Below, piece after piece: positions 11,171-21,130 of a DNA stretch of 27,526 nucleotides. Origin of the DNA: a virus; the IMG/VR virus record IMGVR_UViG_3300045957_000046, positions 1-27,526 of that record; one strand, 5' to 3'. Numbering within the stretch: position 1 is the first letter of the stretch; every line of letters begins with the position of its first letter. The position numbers were made by a program, and so were the translations under genes. The notes beneath the pieces are model-generated. The model made no database searches, had not been told where the DNA came from, and worked only from the letters and a program-made list of their open reading frames with translations.

Positions 11171-11410
11171 ATGAACAAGCCCTCAGATTCAACCCCCAAC
11201 ACTCATCGTGAAGTTATAAAGCACGAATATTGCTTTAAATGTGACGAGTGCACTAATATCCGTATAGCAGACGTCGGCCGTAAGCAAGAGGTATGGGGAG
11301 CTATGATTCACGTTCCCGAGAATGTGCCATGCTGTGACAGGTGTGGCTCATCTGATGTGGGCGATGCCTGGGTTTATGAGGACACGTGGGAATTTGTGGC
11401 AGAGGCTTAA
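11171..11410 (+). CDS. zinc-ribbon-like protein, 79 aa
   Basis: 79 aa with Cys21-x2-Cys24-x2-Cys27 and Cys54-Cys55-x2-Cys58, the two paired-cysteine knuckles of a zinc ribbon (CFKCDEC ... CCDRCGSSD). Many phage early zinc ribbons bind nucleic acid or RNA polymerase, but no specific family is recognised. TAGGAATTAATC precedes the ATG. It is first in the replication operon and is followed 2 nt after its stop by the helicase gene. Confidence 0.75.
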   Translation: MNKPSDSTPNTHREVIKHEYCFKCDECTNIRIADVGRKQEVWGAMIHVPENVPCCDRCGSSDVGDAWVYEDTWEFVAEA

Positions 11411-11412
11411 TA

Positions 11413-12855
11413 ATGGACAAGCACTCATTCATATCTCCTCCCATGAATCATCAGCTAATTGGTCTGAGAAAGGCATGGAAGAAGAAGGAGTACGCATTAT
11501 TCTGGGAGATGGGAACGGGAAAAACGTTCACTGCCATCAATCTGGCAGCGGCTAGATTCAACGCAGACCAGATCGATTCTCTATTGGTCGTATGTCCGAC
11601 TCCCATCAAGTCTGTTTGGAAGAGTGAGATACTCAAGTGGAGTCCAATCCCAGCCTCAGTGGACGTTATTGAGGCTGGAAGAAAAGCGCTATCACTGGGC
11701 GAGCCCTCAAAATTGGAAGTGTTGGTGGTCGGGGTAGAGTCATTATCTAATGGAAAGGCGTCCAAATTGGCCAGTGAATTTGTGGCCACACGGAATCCAA
11801 TGATTGTGTGTGACGAGTCCTCAAAGCTCAAGAACCCGAACGCGACCAGAACGAAGAAAGCGGTGCAACTGGCCAACCAGTGTGAGTATAAAATAATCAT
11901 GACCGGCACACCAATAACCCAAGGAATGGAGGACTTATACTCCCAATTCCTATTCTTGGACCGGAACATAATTGGCGTCAAGAACTACTTCATGTTCAAG
12001 AGGACGTACTGCATTATGGGAGGATTTGAGGGTAGAAAAATCCTGGGCTATATGAATGAAGATGAACTGCTAGCCCGACTGGCTCCTTTTACTGATGTGG
12101 TGAAAAAGGCTGATGTATTGGACTTGCCCGAGAAAGTGTACGAGCGAGTCTCTGTGGAACCAACAAAGGAGCAATTGGCCCTGATCAAGGCTTTGAAGGA
12201 GAAATTTGAGGCTGAGCAGGGAGGCGAAGTTCTGTCGGTACGCACAATATTGGAGCGATTAACCAGATTTCAACAGATCCTCGGTGGCAACTTTCCCTAT
12301 GCCGAATTAGATTCACGAGGAGAACGAGTATACCGAACATCCCCAGTGGAAGGCAAAAACCCCAAGCTGGAAGCCCTCATGGATTTGATTCAGGGAATCT
12401 CGCACGAAACCAAAGTTATCATCTGGGCCAGGTTTGTGCCTGAAATTGAAGCCATCAAAGAACAATTGGACAGTTACGCGCCGGGAAAAGTCCGAACCTT
12501 TTATGGGAAAGACACCGCTGATGAAAGAAATCAGACGACTGAAGACTTCCAGAACGGGGAGGTGCGCTTTATTGTGGCTAATCCCTCAGTGGGCGGAATG
12601 GGTCAAACGTGGACAGCAGCCACACTGGTCATATACTTTTCGAATTCATTCAGTTATGAGAACAGGATGCAAAGTGAGGATAGAGTCCACAGGAAAGGAC
12701 AATATAAGTCCGTTACATATGTGGACATTGAAATGGCTCACGAGTACGATTCAATGGTGTTAAGTGCTATTAAGCATAAAGGAGGTGTGGCAAAATATAT
12801 AGACTCGAATATGGGATCACCGGAAAAACCGGGTAAATTTTATAATTCATTTTAA
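11413..12855 (+). CDS. SNF2-family DEAD-like helicase/ATPase
   Basis: 480 aa. Walker A MGTGKT at about 33-38, DEAD-box-like DESS at about 134-137, motif III MTGTPI near 165, motif V with NPSVGGMGQTW, and motif VI QSEDRVHRKGQ at about 420-430, which is the SNF2-type QxxDRxxRxGQ signature. Single polypeptide with only the helicase core, as in many phages where it sits beside DNA polymerase. Start 11413 is chosen over 11386 because AGAGG lies 7 nt upstream and it follows the previous stop. Probably remodels or unwinds DNA during replication or recombination. Contains GCGCTATCA at 11686. Confidence 0.92.
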   Translation: MDKHSFISPPMNHQLIGLRKAWKKKEYALFWEMGTGKTFTAINLAAARFNADQIDSLLVVCPTPIKSVWKSEILKWSPIPASVDVIEAGRKALSLGEPSKLEVLVVGVESLSNGKASKLASEFVATRNPMIVCDESSKLKNPNATRTKKAVQLANQCEYKIIMTGTPITQGMEDLYSQFLFLDRNIIGVKNYFMFKRTYCIMGGFEGRKILGYMNEDELLARLAPFTDVVKKADVLDLPEKVYERVSVEPTKEQLALIKALKEKFEAEQGGEVLSVRTILERLTRFQQILGGNFPYAELDSRGERVYRTSPVEGKNPKLEALMDLIQGISHETKVIIWARFVPEIEAIKEQLDSYAPGKVRTFYGKDTADERNQTTEDFQNGEVRFIVANPSVGGMGQTWTAATLVIYFSNSFSYENRMQSEDRVHRKGQYKSVTYVDIEMAHEYDSMVLSAIKHKGGVAKYIDSNMGSPEKPGKFYNSF

Positions 12856-12859
12856 GGAA

Positions 12860-13297
12860 ATGAACGTGAATAGACACGATGAATATGAAGCAATATATAG
12901 TAGCTGGTCTCTGCCCCAATTGGCCCGACACATTTCGGGGTTACGGGAAGAGTTGGACAGACTGACTGCGGAAAGAGCCGCTCTATCAAAACTGTACGAT
13001 TGGTTTACGATTAATCTTGTGCCGGAGAAAATGGCTGAACAGGACATCCAATCGATGAAAATAGAAAACGTCGGTAGGCTACAGCTTCGTCCCGACGCAT
13101 GGGTTAGAACGGTGGACAAAGACGCCCTATTTGAATGGGTGAGAAAGAACAAATTTGATTCCGTTATCACAGAGACAATCAACGCTGGTACTCTGAAGGC
13201 TCTTATCAAGTCTCAGATCAATGATTGTGATGACATCCCACCCGAGGATGCTGTTACATATACGCCCTATGTCAGGGCAATTGTAGTTAAATCTTAA
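12860..13297 (+). CDS. conserved-type replication-operon protein, 145 aa
   Basis: N-terminal 50 residues form a likely coiled coil (GLREELDRLTAERAALSKLY). The C-terminal part (MKIENVGRLQLRPDAWVRTV, then ALFEWVRKNKFDSVITETIN, AGTLKALIKSQ, and a final aromatic beta-like segment) resembles uncharacterised phage proteins that sit between SNF2 helicase and polymerase genes. No catalytic motif is seen. The start may be the GTG at 12866 (143 aa), because AAGGA is only 2-3 nt from the ATG at 12860 but 8 nt from the GTG. Confidence 0.75.
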   Translation: MNVNRHDEYEAIYSSWSLPQLARHISGLREELDRLTAERAALSKLYDWFTINLVPEKMAEQDIQSMKIENVGRLQLRPDAWVRTVDKDALFEWVRKNKFDSVITETINAGTLKALIKSQINDCDDIPPEDAVTYTPYVRAIVVKS

Positions 13298-13309
13298 GGA
13301 GATATTGGA

Positions 13310-14044
13310 ATGACTACCAAAGAAATCGCAAACAACACAGTACGCCCCAAGTGGATGAGGGTTGTGGGAGAGACTATGCCCCGTGGAAATGAGGGGGTCA
13401 AGTCGGACGATCTGGTTATACCCCGACTCTCAATCATTCAGGATTTGTCGCCTCAACACAAGAAATCCAAAGCCGAGTACATTGAGGGTGCCGAGCCGAA
13501 GATGATATTTAACACGGCCACAAATGAACTGTACGGCAACAAGGTGTTTGTGGTACCTGTCTACTACGTGAAGGAGTGGATCATCTGGAAGGACATCAAC
13601 AAAGGCGGTGGCTTCAAAGGAGCATACCAGACGAGGGAAGAAGCGCTATCAGAAATCCGTCAAGACCCTGACAGTGCAAATCTCGATATAGTTGACACCG
13701 GCCAGCACTACTGCCTGGTCTTCCATGCGAAGACCCCAGTGGCCACTATGGACCAATTCGCGGATCGTGCCGTTATCTCGATGTCAAAGTCGCAGATGAA
13801 AATCTCCCGCCAGTTCAATACCCTCATTCAATCGGCAGGCGGCGATCGTTGGGAGCGTATCTACGAACTTTCTGTGGTAGATGACAACAACGCTGCCGGG
13901 CAGGGGTTTTACAATTGGCGCGTACGCCAACTGGGCTATGTGGATGAAGATATCTTCAAGATGGCCGAGAAAATGTACGAACAGGTGAAAACCGGAGCGG
14001 CGAGGCCGAATAGGGAATCGGTGTCGGATACTGGGGACTTCTAG
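13310..14044 (+). CDS. phage replication protein of SSB-associated type, 244 aa
   Basis: Pattern DDLVIPRLSIIQDLSP near residue 33, then a Lys-rich segment, TATNELYGNKVFVVPVYYVKEWIIW (in two blocks) and a Ser-Gln-Met-Lys basic region in the middle. This resembles a phage family I know from replication modules with family A polymerases, without a firm biochemical role. The C-terminus ends SVSDTGDF: an acidic then terminal Phe tip, weakly like single-stranded DNA-binding protein tails. AAGGAGATATTGGA precedes the ATG. Contains GCGCTATCA at 13643. A role in binding ssDNA is inference. Confidence 0.7.
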   Translation: MTTKEIANNTVRPKWMRVVGETMPRGNEGVKSDDLVIPRLSIIQDLSPQHKKSKAEYIEGAEPKMIFNTATNELYGNKVFVVPVYYVKEWIIWKDINKGGGFKGAYQTREEALSEIRQDPDSANLDIVDTGQHYCLVFHAKTPVATMDQFADRAVISMSKSQMKISRQFNTLIQSAGGDRWERIYELSVVDDNNAAGQGFYNWRVRQLGYVDEDIFKMAEKMYEQVKTGAARPNRESVSDTGDF

Positions 14045-14449: not shown

Positions 14450-16312
14450 ATGTACAACTTAGAACACCACGATAGAATAGCTATAGATACTGAGACTACA
14501 GGTCTCAGTTTCATCGATGACGCCATATTTGGAATATCAATAGCTACCCCGACAAACGCATGGTACATTGACACCAGACATCAACCAGAAGAAGTTGAAA
14601 AACTAAGGAAGGAACTGTCATCCTACACTGGGACGGTGGCCATGTTCAACGCCAAGTTTGACTGGAAATTCCTTTACACCATTGGGATTAAGATCCCATT
14701 CGATAATATAGTCGATGTGGCAATCCAAGCCTGCATTATCGACGAGAATCTCGGCAGGAACGCATACACACTGGACGCATTAGCCAGTCGATATCTGGGC
14801 GAAAGGAAAGTGTCTGATATCTACGAAGAACTAGCCAGTGTGTTCGGCGGTAAGGCCACCAGGAATCAGCAGATGCCGAACTTACATCTGGCCGATCCCC
14901 AATTGGTAGCCCCCTACGCGATCCGGGACGCTGAATTGACCTTGAAACTGTTCGAAGTACAGCACCGAATCATCAACCATGAACAGCGACATAAAGCCCT
15001 GTGGAAGATAGCCGGTCTGGAACAATCCCTCATTCAGCATGTGGTACACCAGGAAATGACGGGCGTCAGAGTCGACCTGGATTATGCGGAACAGGCCAGA
15101 ACTAAACTTCATACGACGATCAACGATCTGAAGAAGCAATTGGATCAGGCCATGGGGAAACCATTCAATCCCAACTCATCGCCGCAAGTCATAAAATACT
15201 TTAACCCGAAGAAGAATGGCAATGGAGAATACGTTCTTTCCTGTGGGGTTAAGTGCAAGACGACGGAGAAAGGTAACCCATCAATTGATAATGAAGTGCT
15301 GCTCAGGATAGCAGAAAAAGACCCTATAGCAGACAAAATCATTGAAATAAGAAGGATGATCAAGACAGCCGACACGTTTCTCGGCAAGCATGTATTGGGA
15401 CATGCCAAGTGGAAAGGTGGAAGTTGGCGTGTGCATCCCAATATCAACCAGACGGCATCTTCCGAAGGAGGGACAAAGACCGGGAGGTTCAGTTATACAG
15501 ACCCAGCACTGCAGCAGATCCCCAACAGGAACAGGGCGGTTGCCTCGATTGTGAAGCCATGCTTTTTACCTGATGAAGGCCATATGTGGGTTGAAGGTGA
15601 CTTAAACAGTTTCGAGGTTAGGGTCTTTGCCAGTTTGGTGGGAAGGTTCAACCGCGAGCTGATAGATGTATACACCAGAAATCCCGATACTGACTTTCAC
15701 GGATGGGTTGCCGATCTAATGTCAGTACCACGCAACCCAAGGCCCGATGGTGGGCCAAACGCCAAGCAGTTGAACCTGTCCATGATCTTCAACTCTGGGA
15801 AGGGGAGCATCGCTAAGCAATTGGGATACTCAACAACCCAAGAGTCATTCGTTACGGACGAGGGTGAAGTAGTGGTATATGACAAGCCATGCGCGGAAGC
15901 CGAACAGATCATCAATTTATATTACAATAAAGTCATTGGTGTGAGAGAGCTTGCGGCCAGGTGTAAGAACACCATCATGCACAGGGGATGGATTCGAACT
16001 GAGTTCGGCAGGGTGATTAATATACCGAACAAACGTTTTGCGTATAAAGCGTCTGGATTATTGATTCAGGCCACATCAGCTGACATCAACAAGCACAATT
16101 GGCTCAGAATAATAAACGCCCTGGGCGACGATGGTAGACTGATACTTAATACGCACGACAGTTATAGTATGTCAATCAGAGAAGATAAAGTAAAGGAGGT
16201 GTGGAACAGAGTAAAAGATACTGTAGAGCAACCTATCATCAACGTGCCAATAACACTCGACTACAAAGGTTCGGGTGTAAATTGGTGGGCATCCATTAAA
16301 GGAGATAAGTAA
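14450..16312 (+). CDS. dpoZ: family A DNA polymerase with 3'-5' exonuclease, candidate DpoZ
   Basis: 620 aa. Exonuclease domain: IDTETTG with Asp13/Glu15, FNAKFDWKFL, and YAIRDAE. Polymerase domain: GTKTGRFSYTDP-QQIPNRN; motif A with Asp384 in GDLNSFEVR (canonical DYSQIELR); motif B around Lys439 (NAKQLNLSMIF); motif C with Asp570 in THDSYSM (canonical HDE, so Glu is Ser). The catalytic aspartates are kept but the flanking residues are unusual. Family A polymerases next to purZ-type genes in Z-genome phages were shown to favour dZTP over dATP; that property is assigned here by neighbourhood only. Start set at 14450 because TTAGGA lies upstream and the longer frame overlaps the previous gene. 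Its stop overlaps the next ATG (TAATG). Confidence 0.9.
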   Translation: MYNLEHHDRIAIDTETTGLSFIDDAIFGISIATPTNAWYIDTRHQPEEVEKLRKELSSYTGTVAMFNAKFDWKFLYTIGIKIPFDNIVDVAIQACIIDENLGRNAYTLDALASRYLGERKVSDIYEELASVFGGKATRNQQMPNLHLADPQLVAPYAIRDAELTLKLFEVQHRIINHEQRHKALWKIAGLEQSLIQHVVHQEMTGVRVDLDYAEQARTKLHTTINDLKKQLDQAMGKPFNPNSSPQVIKYFNPKKNGNGEYVLSCGVKCKTTEKGNPSIDNEVLLRIAEKDPIADKIIEIRRMIKTADTFLGKHVLGHAKWKGGSWRVHPNINQTASSEGGTKTGRFSYTDPALQQIPNRNRAVASIVKPCFLPDEGHMWVEGDLNSFEVRVFASLVGRFNRELIDVYTRNPDTDFHGWVADLMSVPRNPRPDGGPNAKQLNLSMIFNSGKGSIAKQLGYSTTQESFVTDEGEVVVYDKPCAEAEQIINLYYNKVIGVRELAARCKNTIMHRGWIRTEFGRVINIPNKRFAYKASGLLIQATSADINKHNWLRIINALGDDGRLILNTHDSYSMSIREDKVKEVWNRVKDTVEQPIINVPITLDYKGSGVNWWASIKGDK

Positions 16313-18690
16313 TGGCTAGTATAGACATCAAGAAAATCGCTGAGATTAACGAAATCGTATCATTTGACCAGAAAATATATGAAGCTGCACTATATTATGT
16401 GGAAAACGGCTTTCGTATAATACCACTGGAGCCGAACAGCAAAAAGCTACCGGGCAAACGACACAATATCAATTATAGTCATGCGACCACAAAGGTTGAA
16501 ATGGTGAAAAAGTGGTTTGGTCCTGAAGGTAGATTCAGAGGATGGAACATCGGCATCGCCACCGGATGTGAAAAGGGTGTATTTGCCCTTGACATTGATA
16601 CGCACGGCGAAGTCAATGGTTTCGCCTCAATGGAGAAGATTGTACCGGAAGGATATGAATACGATGGCCCAGTCCAGATTACACCATCTGGCGGCAATCA
16701 TCTGCTGTTCAATTGGCAGGAGAACGCGACATCATCAACCAATAAAGTTGGCCTCGGGATTGACACCAGAGGCGGCGATTGGAAGACTTGTCGCGGTCAT
16801 GTCGTAGCATGGCCATCCATCGTTGATAATGTCCAGTACCAGTGGAATCATGGTGGTGAAACGCCCGACATACCATTCTGGATATTAGACAGGCTAGGCA
16901 AATCTTGGCAGGGTGGTCCTCCTCCGGCTGAGAACAGGGGCAACGAGCAAATGTCCGAATCGGACATGGAGGATAAATTCTCTGAAGACACACTTGAGAA
17001 TATGCTCAAACATATTAACCCAGACGAGCTGTCGTATGACGATTGGATTCAGATTGGTATGGCCATCCATACTCAAATAGAAGGCCCCAGTGGGCTAAAA
17101 ATTTGGGACGATTGGAGCAAACAGGGCGAACGGTATAAGCAAGGAGAGTGCGCAGATCGTTGGAGCGGATTCACATCCGGTGGTCCCGTTAGAATTGGCA
17201 CCCTGATTCATTACGCCAGGCTCGGTGGCTTCAGGATGAATAACCCACAACGGAGCGAGGACCAAAACGAGATAGACGCTATCATAGACGATCTCAACGG
17301 GAACCACGCCGTTGTGCCAATAGGCGGCGACGTTATGATACTGGAGGAAATCAAAGTACCGAAGGAAATGAAAAACATCCAGCCACCGTACAGACTGCTG
17401 AAACGGGCGGCATTCAAATCGCTGCATGAAAATGAGCCAGTTATTTTCGTGAGTAATGCGAACAAGGTTATAAAGACCACACGCACGGATATTTGGCTGA
17501 GTCACCCCAACAGGAGAACATACCCTTCTGGCATAGGGATGTTCCCAGGCAAACCCAAGGGATACCACGGATATTATAACCTGTGGCCGGGGTTTGCATA
17601 TGAACCTGTACCGGGCGATTGGAGTAAATTCGACGCCCACATTCGCGACATAGTGTGCGACGAGAATGAAGAACTGTATAATTGGGTTCTAGATTGGATG
17701 GCTGATGCTGTTCAAGATCCTGCTAACCCAAAAGGGTGCGCAATCATTCTTCACGGGATTGAGGGGTGCGGCAAGGGAACGTTCGCCCAGATGTTTGGGG
17801 CACTGTTTGGGGCTGCATTCAAGCACTTGACATCGGTAGAGCATCTCACTGGCAGATTCAGCGGTCACTTGGCAGACGCCGTGTTTGTCTTCGCTGATGA
17901 AGTCACGTATGGCGGTGATCGCAAGGTAGCCGGCAAGCTCAAAGCCATGGTTTCGGAGAGGGTCATAACTTCGGAAAGGAAGGGCGTTGATGCCATTCAG
18001 CAGTACAACTGCGCCCACATGGTCATAGCATCCAATGAGGACTGGTTTATCCCGGCTGGTCCCCAATCAAGGCGATGGCTAATCTTGGAAGTGAGCGGTA
18101 GAATGGCCGGTGATGATTCATATTTTGAAGCTATTCACGACCAGATGGAAAAGAAAGGAGGATTCGAAGCTATGCTTCATGATTTAATGAACCGGAAAAT
18201 CACCAGTAGGCTGAATCGGGCTCCCGTCACCGAAGCGCTTAAAGGTCAACGATCACAATATACTCAGTCCAGTCAAACCAAAGGATCAATTGCCGCATGG
18301 CTGGCAAGAGCAATTGACACCGAAAGCCTTGGAGCGCCTCCTATGCCACGACCTAAAACCCCCTGGGCCGATGAGATAGAAGAAGATCCTCTTTGGCCGA
18401 ATAAAGTTAGGCCACTGGACATATATGCTGCCTATGAAGGATGGGCTGAGCACAAAATGAGAAGGCCAGTGGCGACTCATATATTTTTTACAACGCTGAA
18501 GGAGTTAGGATTCGTCAGAAAAGTAATTGAACGCGGAGGGAAGCGTATGAACTGTTACGAGGTACCATGTAAGGAAGACCTCGCAAAGGTAATTACCGAG
18601 CAGCATGGTATTGCACTTAAGGTGTTTGAAGATACGTTAGAAGAAGAGTTAGAAGAAGGGTATGAAGAGGAGCAAAGCGATGAAATTTGA
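16312..18690 (+). CDS. PrimPol-SF3 helicase fusion (replicative primase-helicase)
   Basis: 792 aa. N-terminal bifunctional primase-polymerase domain with FALDIDTHG (Asp94, Asp96 metal ligands) and GGNHLLFNW. Then a PriCT-like region (about 225-300, DDWIQIGMAIHTQ, KIWDDWSKQ). Then a D5-type helicase: Walker A HGIEGCGKGT at about 481-490, Walker B FVFADE at about 525-530, and HMVIASNEDWFIPAG with the sensor asparagine. A C-terminal domain (about 700-770) with WAEHKMRRP may be a winged-helix substrate-binding module. Synthesises primers and unwinds the fork. GGAGATAA precedes the ATG. A PrimPol plus a separate family A polymerase in one Z-phage is worth noting, since the cyanophage S-2L is reported to rely on a PrimPol alone. 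Confidence 0.92.
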   Translation: MASIDIKKIAEINEIVSFDQKIYEAALYYVENGFRIIPLEPNSKKLPGKRHNINYSHATTKVEMVKKWFGPEGRFRGWNIGIATGCEKGVFALDIDTHGEVNGFASMEKIVPEGYEYDGPVQITPSGGNHLLFNWQENATSSTNKVGLGIDTRGGDWKTCRGHVVAWPSIVDNVQYQWNHGGETPDIPFWILDRLGKSWQGGPPPAENRGNEQMSESDMEDKFSEDTLENMLKHINPDELSYDDWIQIGMAIHTQIEGPSGLKIWDDWSKQGERYKQGECADRWSGFTSGGPVRIGTLIHYARLGGFRMNNPQRSEDQNEIDAIIDDLNGNHAVVPIGGDVMILEEIKVPKEMKNIQPPYRLLKRAAFKSLHENEPVIFVSNANKVIKTTRTDIWLSHPNRRTYPSGIGMFPGKPKGYHGYYNLWPGFAYEPVPGDWSKFDAHIRDIVCDENEELYNWVLDWMADAVQDPANPKGCAIILHGIEGCGKGTFAQMFGALFGAAFKHLTSVEHLTGRFSGHLADAVFVFADEVTYGGDRKVAGKLKAMVSERVITSERKGVDAIQQYNCAHMVIASNEDWFIPAGPQSRRWLILEVSGRMAGDDSYFEAIHDQMEKKGGFEAMLHDLMNRKITSRLNRAPVTEALKGQRSQYTQSSQTKGSIAAWLARAIDTESLGAPPMPRPKTPWADEIEEDPLWPNKVRPLDIYAAYEGWAEHKMRRPVATHIFFTTLKELGFVRKVIERGGKRMNCYEVPCKEDLAKVITEQHGIALKVFEDTLEEELEEGYEEEQSDEI

Positions 18691-19717
18691 ATCAACCCCA
18701 AGAATCGACATGATTATTGACCTGCAGTATGGGTCTACAGGCAAGGGATTATTGGCCGGGTTATTGGCCGAGACATACGAGCATGATGTGGTTGTAACAT
18801 GTAACATGCCCAATGCCGGGCATACATACATTGACTCCCGTGAACGGAAGATGATCCATAAAGTGCTTCCCAATGGGATCGTATCCCCCAACCTCAAGTA
18901 TGTGCTCATTGGTCCGGGGTCGGTATTCAGCATCTCACGGCTGATGGAAGAAAAATTGGCAGCCCAATCGATCGGCTATCTCAACAATGTCGAAATTCTC
19001 GTACATGAAAATGCTACCATACTGCGAAAACGCCACAGCGATGAGGAAAATAAATCTCAGGGCACCAAATCCATCGCCTCTACCAAACAAGGGGCCATGG
19101 CCGCCACTGTGGAGAAAATGTACCGGGATAGTGCCCAGCCCATCGTGGTGAAACAGTACGCCGATCTATTCCCCGATTTCAGGATGGTCGGTCCAGACGA
19201 ATGGATACATATAATATCTAATGCCAAGAGGGTATTGGCAGAGGGGTCCCAAGGTTTCAGCCTCGGGATAAACCAGCGGTTTTACCCTTACTGTACTAGC
19301 CGGGAATGCACACCCTATCGAATGGCAAGTGACATGGGTCTGCCCAATGTGCCCCTCAACACGTGGGGCACACTCAGGACGTATCCAATCAGGGTCGGCA
19401 ACACTGCACATGGCCACAGCGGAGGTTGTTATGATGATCAACATGAAGTCTCGTGGGATGAATTAGGCATACAACCAGAGTTCACCACAGTAACTGGTCG
19501 AGAGCGCAGGGTATTCACGTTCTCGATGGCCCAATTGGAAGAGGCCCTGTGGCATTGCCGACCCAAAAGGCTATTCTTGAATTTCTGTAACTACATGGAT
19601 GAGCCTTGCCTAGGCAGACTCGTTGAAAGAATTGAGGGGATTAGCCGCAAATACGGATGCCAAATTGATCTGTTCGGCTATGGCCCAACATACCACGACG
19701 TAAGGAGAGCAAAATGA
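18680..19717 (+). CDS. purZ: PurZ, N6-succino-2-amino-2'-deoxyadenylate synthetase
   Basis: 345 aa, a short homologue of adenylosuccinate synthetase PurA. P-loop QYGSTGKG at about 16-23: the catalytic Asp of PurA (GDEGKG) is Ser, the hallmark of PurZ, which condenses dGMP with aspartate to make the precursor that host PurB turns into dZMP. NAGHT (about 45-49) keeps the catalytic His; EGSQGF, YPYCTSRECTP and WGTLRTYPIRVG match the remaining PurA landmarks. Start 18680 (MKFEST) is favoured: AGGAG lies 7 nt upstream. The frame from 18662 lies inside the primase gene without a ribosome site. Overlaps the primase stop by 11 nt and datZ by 4 nt (ATGA). Confidence 0.93.
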   Translation: MKFESTPRIDMIIDLQYGSTGKGLLAGLLAETYEHDVVVTCNMPNAGHTYIDSRERKMIHKVLPNGIVSPNLKYVLIGPGSVFSISRLMEEKLAAQSIGYLNNVEILVHENATILRKRHSDEENKSQGTKSIASTKQGAMAATVEKMYRDSAQPIVVKQYADLFPDFRMVGPDEWIHIISNAKRVLAEGSQGFSLGINQRFYPYCTSRECTPYRMASDMGLPNVPLNTWGTLRTYPIRVGNTAHGHSGGCYDDQHEVSWDELGIQPEFTTVTGRERRVFTFSMAQLEEALWHCRPKRLFLNFCNYMDEPCLGRLVERIEGISRKYGCQIDLFGYGPTYHDVRRAK

Positions 19718-20184
19718 ATATACAAGACAAAATGCGGGCATCATCTGTCAAGAGGTGGCACGTTGTGAAAACGAGTCACCCCCAGACAGTGGCAGAGCAC
19801 TCATTTAATGTGGCGATTATAGCAGCGGAACTGATGGAAAAGATGTACAATAAAGTACCGCCGGCGATTGAATTGAGAGTAATGAAATTGGCTTTGCTCC
19901 ACGACATACATGAAGTTCACAGTGGCGATATACCAATGACGGCAAAGCCTCCCAAGCATTATGTGTTTGAGGATGAATTGACCCCAGAGGAGATTGTAAA
20001 GGTAGCCGATCTGATTGATAATTATTGTTTCATCAGAGAATACCATGTGGATCGCCATGGTAAGGAGGTTGCCCACTCAGTGTACAAAGAAATGATGCGG
20101 ATGAGAGATGGACTTCCCAGCAAGTGGGTTACAGCCTTCAATACCGTAGTGAGCAGGATCGTTGGGGGAGCATTACACCTATGA
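19714..20184 (+). CDS. datZ: DatZ, HD-domain dATP triphosphohydrolase
   Basis: 156 aa, YfbR-like HD phosphohydrolase fold. RWHVVKTSHPQTVAEHS at about 14-30 gives the first metal His (29); LLHDIHEVHSGDIP at about 61-74 gives the His63-Asp64 pair, Glu67 and Asp72; VADLID at about 97-102 gives the last Asp. In Z-genome phages this enzyme removes dATP, so that the polymerase sees dZTP instead. The assignment as DatZ rather than a general 5'-nucleotidase rests on its place directly after purZ and on size. ATG overlaps the purZ stop. Confidence 0.88.
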   Translation: MNIQDKMRASSVKRWHVVKTSHPQTVAEHSFNVAIIAAELMEKMYNKVPPAIELRVMKLALLHDIHEVHSGDIPMTAKPPKHYVFEDELTPEEIVKVADLIDNYCFIREYHVDRHGKEVAHSVYKEMMRMRDGLPSKWVTAFNTVVSRIVGGALHL

Positions 20185-20588
20185 GGGGGGAAGCGGCATT
20201 ATGGAAAGATATCCGTCCTATGCTTAGCATGTGGGGCGACGTGGACAGAATCGAGTCCCACAGTGTATCCATTGGAAGACCAGATGTGAACCTGTGCCTC
20301 TCTGGTGGCAAAGTTTGGGATATTGAACTTAAATACACTAAATCAAACAGAGTAGTTCTCCGCCCAGCCCAATACGCATGGGTTCGTCGCAGGGTGCATG
20401 TGGGAGGCAACGTACTCATTATTATCAGATCAGATAATGGTAAATTGCGCCGCCACCTGGCAGTTCTGGGAGGCGATATGCCCGATGTAAAGCACAACCG
20501 GACATTAAGCGCTTGGGAGCTTCAAGCTTCAGCTATTTGGATAGGCAAAATTGATCGTGATGATCTGAGGAGTATGCTCAATGGATAG
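20181..20588 (+). CDS. PD-(D/E)XK nuclease-like protein (VRR-NUC/resolvase type)
   Basis: 135 aa. GRPDVNLCLSGGKVWDIELKY (read as GRPD, an 11-residue gap, then WDIELK) is the Pro-Asp ... Glu-x-Lys catalytic pattern. VVLRPAQYAWVRRRVHVGG followed by NVLIIIRSD matches the Gln-containing helix and final strand of VRR-NUC and small Holliday-junction resolvase-like nucleases. Lies between datZ and mazZ, overlapping both (ATGA at its start, 8 nt at its end), so it is co-translated with the Z enzymes. Possible jobs: resolving replication intermediates, or cutting A-containing host DNA. The second is speculation. Start 20181 is chosen over 20124 because of the coupling overlap. Confidence 0.75.
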   Translation: MRGEAALWKDIRPMLSMWGDVDRIESHSVSIGRPDVNLCLSGGKVWDIELKYTKSNRVVLRPAQYAWVRRRVHVGGNVLIIIRSDNGKLRRHLAVLGGDMPDVKHNRTLSAWELQASAIWIGKIDRDDLRSMLNG

Positions 20589-20889
20589 GAAAAACAAAGG
20601 CAAGACTAAGCTGACTAAGGCAATGCTTTTTCCACAGGCCCTGGAGGCTTTGGTTCAAGTGGTGGAATATGGTGAGGAAAAATACTCAGATGCTCAAGAA
20701 AAAGCATGGCTGAGTTACGAGCCAGTGGAAGTGATAGATTCAATGCTCCGACATATATTGGCTTTAACCAATGGAGAAATAATCGACCCTGAGTCGGGTC
20801 TTCATCACGCGAAGCACATCATGTTTAACGCCGCTGCATTGAACGAAATCAACTACGGTTGTTCTTTGTTAGATTTCTACGACGGGTAA
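20581..20889 (+). CDS. mazZ: MazZ, MazG-like dGTP/GTP pyrophosphohydrolase
   Basis: 102 aa, all-helical NTP pyrophosphatase. The metal motif is Glu29-x2-Glu32/Glu33 (VVEYGEEKY) followed by Glu50-x2-Asp53 (PVEVIDSMLRHI), and HHAKHIMFNAAALNE forms a further helix. It resembles the phage dATP/dGTP diphosphohydrolase family. In the Z pathway MazZ converts (d)GTP to (d)GMP, feeding dGMP to PurZ. GAGGAG lies 8 nt before the ATG. Its 3' end overlaps the convergent HNH gene by 41 nt. Confidence 0.88.
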   Translation: MDRKNKGKTKLTKAMLFPQALEALVQVVEYGEEKYSDAQEKAWLSYEPVEVIDSMLRHILALTNGEIIDPESGLHHAKHIMFNAAALNEINYGCSLLDFYDG

Positions 20890-21130
20890 CAGCCCTAAGG
20901 TTAGATCTATTATTAGATCCACCTTTACTGAGAGAGGTTTTATGGTCAACGTGCTTACCATCGCCTTTGCGGACTTTACCCTCTCTCATCAACCGCGCCC
21001 TCGCATTATTACGCTGGGCGCGTCTTTTCTTTTGCGTGGCAGAAGCTTGGTATGTTCTGCCATGCTTTCTCATCTGTTCCAAAGTTCTATGAGCAGTTTT
21101 GCTCCTGATTCCACTTTTGGTTTTCGGCAT
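20849..21130 (-). CDS. HNH endonuclease-like protein, 93 aa
   Basis: Very basic N-terminal half (TQKKRRAQRNNARARLMREG), then GKHVDHKTSLSKGGSNNRSN, the Asp-His ... Asn pattern of an HNH beta-beta-alpha-metal nuclease (Asp62-His63, Asn74/Asn77), ending LRAVTRRRNLTKNN. The short size is typical of small phage HNH proteins, which assist terminase or are homing-type. Starts by TGATG overlap with the 967-aa gene and ends inside the 3' end of mazZ on the other strand. Confidence 0.85.
   Translation of the reverse strand: MPKTKSGIRSKTAHRTLEQMRKHGRTYQASATQKKRRAQRNNARARLMREGKVRKGDGKHVDHKTSLSKGGSNNRSNLRAVTRRRNLTKNNRS

Follow-up and report, generated by a model that had tools for sequence, protein, structure and literature searches.

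Some known phages have 2-aminoadenine (Z) genomes, and the Z system as such is already known. Here we ask how a phage with a likely Z genome could obtain dGMP when its Z operon holds no recognisable MazZ, the usual source. The window, that is, the whole stretch of DNA analysed, is an IMG/VR virus fragment of 27,526 bases (27.5 kb); its relatives are ~38–40 kb long. The original prediction had placed all four phage-encoded roles of Z synthesis in one operon of this fragment, filled by PurZ, DatZ, MazZ and a family A polymerase. Its interpretation as a Z-genome phage stands for PurZ, DatZ and the polymerase. For the fourth role the fragment shows no MazZ, and the protein so named belongs to DUF5664 and may do the same job.

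Results

The operon occupies the plus strand. It opens with a DpoZ-type family A DNA polymerase with a 3′–5′ exonuclease (14450–16312, 620 aa) and a P4-type primase-polymerase/helicase with Prim-Pol, PriCT_2 and DUF5906 domains (16312–18690, 792 aa). These are followed by PurZ, a 2-amino-adenylosuccinate synthetase (dGMP + Asp; 18680–19717, with an alternative ATG start at 18662), DatZ, an HD-domain dATP triphosphohydrolase (19714–20184, 156 aa), a PD-(D/E)xK/VRR-type nuclease (20181–20588; phrog_2165, E 1.1e-13) and a stand-alone DUF5664 (PF18909) protein (20581–20889, 102 aa). With the gene starts chosen, which mostly come with a Shine-Dalgarno-like sequence, the genes from the polymerase to the DUF5664 gene overlap in turn by 1, 11, 4, 4 and 8 nt, confirming the tight operon, with overlaps of 1 to 11 nt, that had been predicted. 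The predicted gene list made no mention of the primase-helicase and the nuclease, yet both sit between genes that it named. Upstream lie genes for an SNF2-type helicase (11386–12855), a DUF7307 protein (12860–13297) and a Pam3 gp34-like protein (13310–14044). A small HNH-type ORF on the minus strand (20849–21130; PF01844 barely over cut-off) overlaps the end of the DUF5664 gene, and the opposite strand on both flanks of the operon encodes a major head protein, head–tail adaptor, internal virion protein and tail protein.

No phage record matched the operon by Megablast. In layout, the window is similar to phiVC8, ZP6 and BUCT555, where the primase-helicase likewise stands between the polymerase and purZ. 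The Vibrio phage phiVC8 (Enhodamvirus; PurZ, DatZ, MazZ-2, DpoZ) is 49% identical to the window in PurZ and 46% in DpoZ, and the two share the order helicase, two small conserved genes, DpoZ, primase-helicase, PurZ, DatZ, nuclease and small protein, with structural genes coming next on the opposite strand. Of the two, phiVC8 alone carries MazZ-2 (p26) between purZ and datZ; its nuclease is followed by a DUF6378-like protein, whereas the window has no MazZ and has DUF5664 after its nuclease. Homologues of the nuclease are phiVC8 p23 and the ZP6 ‘nuclease’; this type of nuclease follows datZ in most surveyed PurZ phages and is present in purZ-less contigs too. It is a conserved datZ neighbour and is not Z-specific.

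PurZ scored 320.6 bits on the NCBIfam PurZ model NF038379 (cut-off 300, E 8.9e-96) and 100.6 bits on the purA model TIGR00184 (cut-off 395.55), and it falls below the cut-off of every PurA model. In its GSTGKG P-loop, Ser25 replaces the catalytic Asp13 of PurA. The dGMP, ATP and Asp pocket residues, of which those for dGMP and ATP are listed for S-2L PurZ in PMC8342488, are kept and are conserved over 89 PurZ. In a quick tree with long outgroup branches, the window sequence falls inside the PurZ clade (SH-aLRT 97), with Wayne PurZ0 and E. coli PurA outside. The predicted assignment to PurZ is thus upheld by the profile score, Ser25 and the pocket residues, and the phylogeny sets the protein apart from both E. 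coli PurA and PurZ0.

DatZ matches phrog_7076 (E 6.5e-24) and the Pfam YfbR-like family (7.8e-13). Compared with S-2L DatZ at the metal ligands and adenine-pocket residues, the ligands and phosphate lysines being given in PMC8065100, it keeps R19, W20, H34, H66, D67, E70, G74, K81, K116 and D119, and it departs at I22 (V) and P79 (T), two changes that also occur in other DatZ. The phrog_7076 match and this catalytic residue set agree with the HD motifs noted earlier, and the PurZ and DatZ catalytic residues are the same as those of the datZ-mazZ-purZ triad of cyanophage S-2L. About 14 residues found after K78 in phiVC8 DatZ are absent from the window protein. We rejected a truncated DatZ, because all catalytic residues are kept and the shortening is limited to the segment after K78. 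The DatZ of contig L012 is also short, at 157 aa.

The polymerase scored 693.7 bits on the DpoZ_1 model (NF038380; cut-off 500, E 2e-208) and is 46–50% identical to the phiVC8 and 69E27.1 polymerases. It carries the motif-B Phe steric gate (F447) and the conserved exonuclease residues D13, E15 and D71; the Tyr-to-Phe gate and exonuclease residues of DpoZ are described in PMC8599892. The family A polymerase of the prediction is accordingly of the DpoZ type. Six other contigs (L132, L136, L140, L141, L142 and L144) hold a DpoZ-type polymerase ~39–44% identical to that of the window together with a nuclease homologue, and purZ was not found in their fetched DNA. These polymerases could be used with ordinary DNA, as a DpoZ-like enzyme reportedly is in phiJL001.

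On established knowledge of these enzymes, a set of PurZ, DatZ and DpoZ implies Z-DNA. All three are borne out by their profile scores and active-site residues and by synteny with phiVC8 and its relatives, so the phage DNA likely carries Z in place of adenine. The reading as a Z-genome phage is well supported by the PurZ serine and clade, the DatZ catalytic set and the DpoZ_1 match with its Phe gate. Such DNA may also resist restriction.

We then turn to MazZ, which has been described as always lying between purZ and datZ (PMC8342488). It does so in 13 of 13 cultured PurZ phages examined: the slot holds MazZ-2 in phiVC8, 69E27.1, ZP6 and OH, and MazZ-1, in several cases fused to DUF5664, in BUCT555, Bm1, S-2L, SH-Ab, JeffCo, K21lambda1, PSA28, PMBT28 and Kokobel2. 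At the purZ/datZ junction of the window (19714–19717, plus strand), the site of mazZ in relatives, the genes overlap by 4 nt (ATGA). The window also differs from S-2L, which has MazZ-1 and PrimPol as its sole polymerase (PMC8065100), in having DpoZ and no MazZ. Profiles of MazZ-1, MazZ-2 and PF03819 (MazG) gave zero matches in the window and in contigs from 13 relatives that likewise lack MazZ, several of these contigs being 36–38.5 kb long; the positive controls L014, L022 and L028 matched their fitting profiles. With no MazG-type MazZ-1 or MazZ-2 in the window or these relatives, the claim that known enzymes fill all four roles is not supported.

In two contigs, L060 and L061, both DUF5664 and a recognised MazZ are missing, and another gene fills the purZ-datZ slot (L060:9041-9361 and its equivalent in L061). 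This gene is not MazZ-1, MazZ-2 or DUF5664; it has no significant Pfam match and is MazG-like by eye only. It is possibly a third MazZ type.

The gene at 20581–20889 had been called MazZ for an ExxE...ExxD pattern. Its product matches PF18909 with 75 bits (cut-off 27, E 4.7e-21). The pattern, searched as E..E(8-30)E..D, turns up seven times among the window's stop-free frames, twice in this ORF, and its glutamates are unconserved in the DUF5664 family alignment, where G31, K34, Y35, H58, D69 and H76 are conserved. Profile comparison of DUF5664 with MazZ-1, MazZ-2 and DUF6378 detected no relation, while MazZ-1 and MazZ-2 matched each other weakly in the same kind of comparison, and the window protein gave no MazG profile match. 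By family and sequence, we therefore assign the protein to DUF5664 and withdraw the name MazZ.

When compared with the relatives' small proteins, the window protein finds a single match, the MazZ of Acinetobacter phage SH-Ab 15497, via its PF18909 domain. This 385-aa MazZ is a DUF5664–DUF550 fusion with PF18909 as its N-terminal and PF04447 (DUF550) as its C-terminal domain, and only the C-terminal part matches the S-2L MazZ structure 7ody. The window protein has the family and fold of the N-terminal domain and no counterpart of the MazG-type C-terminal domain, the one matching S-2L MazZ. Its AlphaFold2 model (pLDDT 89.2) matched PF18909 proteins in BFVD (TM ~0.7–0.78), those of SH-Ab and PMBT28 among them. 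A fold search in the PDB gave no significant match, with MazZ 7ody, HisE 1y6x and DCTPP1 at E > 6 (~6–7) and TM ~0.4, and a PDB sequence search with the protein yielded nothing meaningful. Judged from the model, a remote relation of DUF5664 to the all-alpha NTP-PPases is possible. Pfam calls PF18909 ‘dATP/dGTP diphosphohydrolase, N-terminal’, a database name that masks a family distinct from MazG-type MazZ.

DUF5664 is common among ordinary phages, with matches in 650 of 50,697 records. Two of these ordinary-phage proteins are misleadingly recorded, LUZ24 gp38 (L169:270-773) as an endolysin that inhibits RNA polymerase and KF-1 gp27 (L170:174-782) as a dCMP deaminase; in the DUF5664 tree they lie close to the copies carried by the Z phages L053/L133 and L028. 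The position that follows the nuclease (20581–20889 in the window; L004:14458-14754) is taken by DUF6378 or DUF5664 in the surveyed loci and, in MazZ-bearing phages, often by DUF6378. To the eye the two families resemble each other (KYG/YGD start, G..D motif), with no relation in the profile comparison.

A characterised member of the family is the stand-alone DUF5664 protein of Arthrobacter phage Wayne (ALY10775.1), which converts dATP, dUTP and dGTP to dNMP with kcat values of ~0.48, 0.22 and 0.053 per second, respectively, about tenfold higher on dATP than on dGTP (PMC12884076). Like the window, Wayne has DUF5664 without DUF550 beside a PurZ-family gene, and core residues are kept in both proteins. 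Unlike the window, it belongs to the PurZ0 lineage and carries a DmtZ–DutZ fusion, and the two DUF5664 proteins are 25% identical. From this analogy we infer the activity of the window protein, and we propose it as a dGTP/dATP pyrophosphohydrolase replacing MazZ.

A first survey covered 88 PurZ loci plus the window, and a second set added 29 new contigs identified via the polymerase. The arrangement purZ-datZ-nuclease-DUF5664 without MazZ recurs in L003, L011, L012, L013, L032, L033, L037, L038, L040 and L079, as in the window. In L077, L080, L086 and L087, a stand-alone DUF5664 gene lies exactly in the mazZ slot, giving purZ-DUF5664-datZ; L038 and L040 share identical PurZ and DUF5664, as do L086 and L087. 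Among scorable rows of the first survey, DUF5664 was present in 15 of 15 MazZ-less contigs and in 17 of 68 MazZ-bearing ones, whether fused or separate; in the second set the counts were 1 of 1 (L112) and 3 of 28. Over both sets, stand-alone DUF5664 accompanies 16 of 16 MazZ-less contigs of this arrangement, the window and L112 included, and DUF5664, fused or separate, is held by 20 of 96 MazZ-bearing PurZ contigs. The co-occurrence has a Fisher p of ~3e-8, which ignores relatedness among the survey rows and scores L060 and L061 as MazZ-bearing, and hence we do not rely on it. An independent-pairs test on the PurZ tree had too few supported pairs.

The trees bear on how often the change occurred. 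In the best PurZ tree the MazZ-less state arises through five changes, only one of them forced by well supported branches. For the DUF5664 proteins encoded downstream in MazZ-less loci, the supported branches of their tree call for three or more changes. Because the DUF5664 tree requires at least three changes but the PurZ tree forces only one, repeated recruitment of DUF5664 is likely rather than proven. The window and L011, L012 and L013 form a supported DUF5664 clade that does not fall within the one holding most fused MazZ domains; it sits in a larger group with weaker support, which also includes proteins of phages that gave no purZ match.

Discussion

Our preferred reading is that the window derives from a phiVC8-like podovirus with PurZ of the PurZ and not the PurZ0 lineage, that its DNA most likely contains Z, and that DUF5664 replaced a lost MazZ as the source of dGMP. 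We put the probability of this reading at roughly 0.65. The main rival also has Z-DNA being made, with the host's pool or enzymes supplying dGMP, DUF5664 serving as a general pool enzyme that removes dATP and dUTP, and MazZ dispensable. Such an arrangement would suit a family so widespread in phages at large, whose frequency in ordinary phages means that its presence by itself says little on Z, and whose Wayne member is more active towards dATP and dUTP than towards dGTP (PMC12884076). Many PurZ phages, moreover, hold both DUF5664 and MazZ (~20 MazZ-bearing contigs), so DUF5664 is not only a MazZ replacement. Also weighing on the DUF5664 replacement are the 25% identity to a Wayne enzyme that favours dATP, the relatedness of the survey rows with a single forced MazZ-less origin, the existence of L060 and L061 with neither gene, and the fragmentary state of the window. 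Against host supply, and for the replacement, DUF5664 is present in every MazZ-less contig of this arrangement and takes the exact mazZ slot in four of them, and the Wayne biochemistry includes dGTP among the substrates. On balance we regard supply by the host as unlikely, though the most serious competitor.

The remaining alternatives are far less probable. A MazG-type MazZ could lie in a part of the genome outside the fragment, given that the window (27.5 kb) is shorter than its relatives (~38–40 kb); the closest relatives, L011 and L012 (38.1 and 38.5 kb), have the same arrangement and no MazZ anywhere in their contigs, and every surveyed locus with mazZ has it adjacent or close to purZ, which makes a distant copy very improbable. 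Ordinary A-containing DNA, with the Z genes inactive or otherwise used, is similarly hard to credit: direct evidence of base composition does not come from sequence alone, but the reading frames are all intact, active-site residues are kept and the whole set is syntenic with phiVC8-type phages. We give least credence of all to the 102-aa protein being a MazG-type MazZ with an ExxE...ExxD site. Its letters fit the pattern and the Pfam name of PF18909 is suggestive, yet the SH-Ab part homologous to the crystallised S-2L MazZ is the C-terminal and not the PF18909 domain, the pattern is unconserved, profile similarity to MazZ-1 and MazZ-2 is lacking, and the fold matches to MazZ and HisE are insignificant.

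Under the preferred reading, in which DUF5664 stands in for MazZ, the MazG-fold MazZ that usually supplies dGMP from between purZ and datZ would have been lost. The DUF5664 protein encoded two genes downstream would most likely convert dGTP to dGMP and probably also aid dATP removal. PurZ would join dGMP to aspartate and host enzymes would complete dZTP, while DatZ would destroy dATP and DpoZ would prefer dZTP over dATP. More broadly, we lean, a little less firmly, towards a view in which MazZ is not obligatory in a Z cluster: stand-alone DUF5664, repeatedly taken up from ordinary phages, would have displaced the unrelated MazZ in several PurZ lineages and may share dATP removal with DatZ.

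In the literature examined, supplements aside, we found no description of PurZ, DatZ and DpoZ with a stand-alone DUF5664 and without MazZ. The rule that mazZ lies between purZ and datZ is broken in the same manner by the window and 15 further contigs. If the replacement is real, DUF5664 would offer a small alternative part for laboratory Z-DNA production. It would also be another enzyme able to supply dGMP when Z-DNA is made by the PurZ route, and would help account for the frequent fusion of DUF5664 to MazZ.
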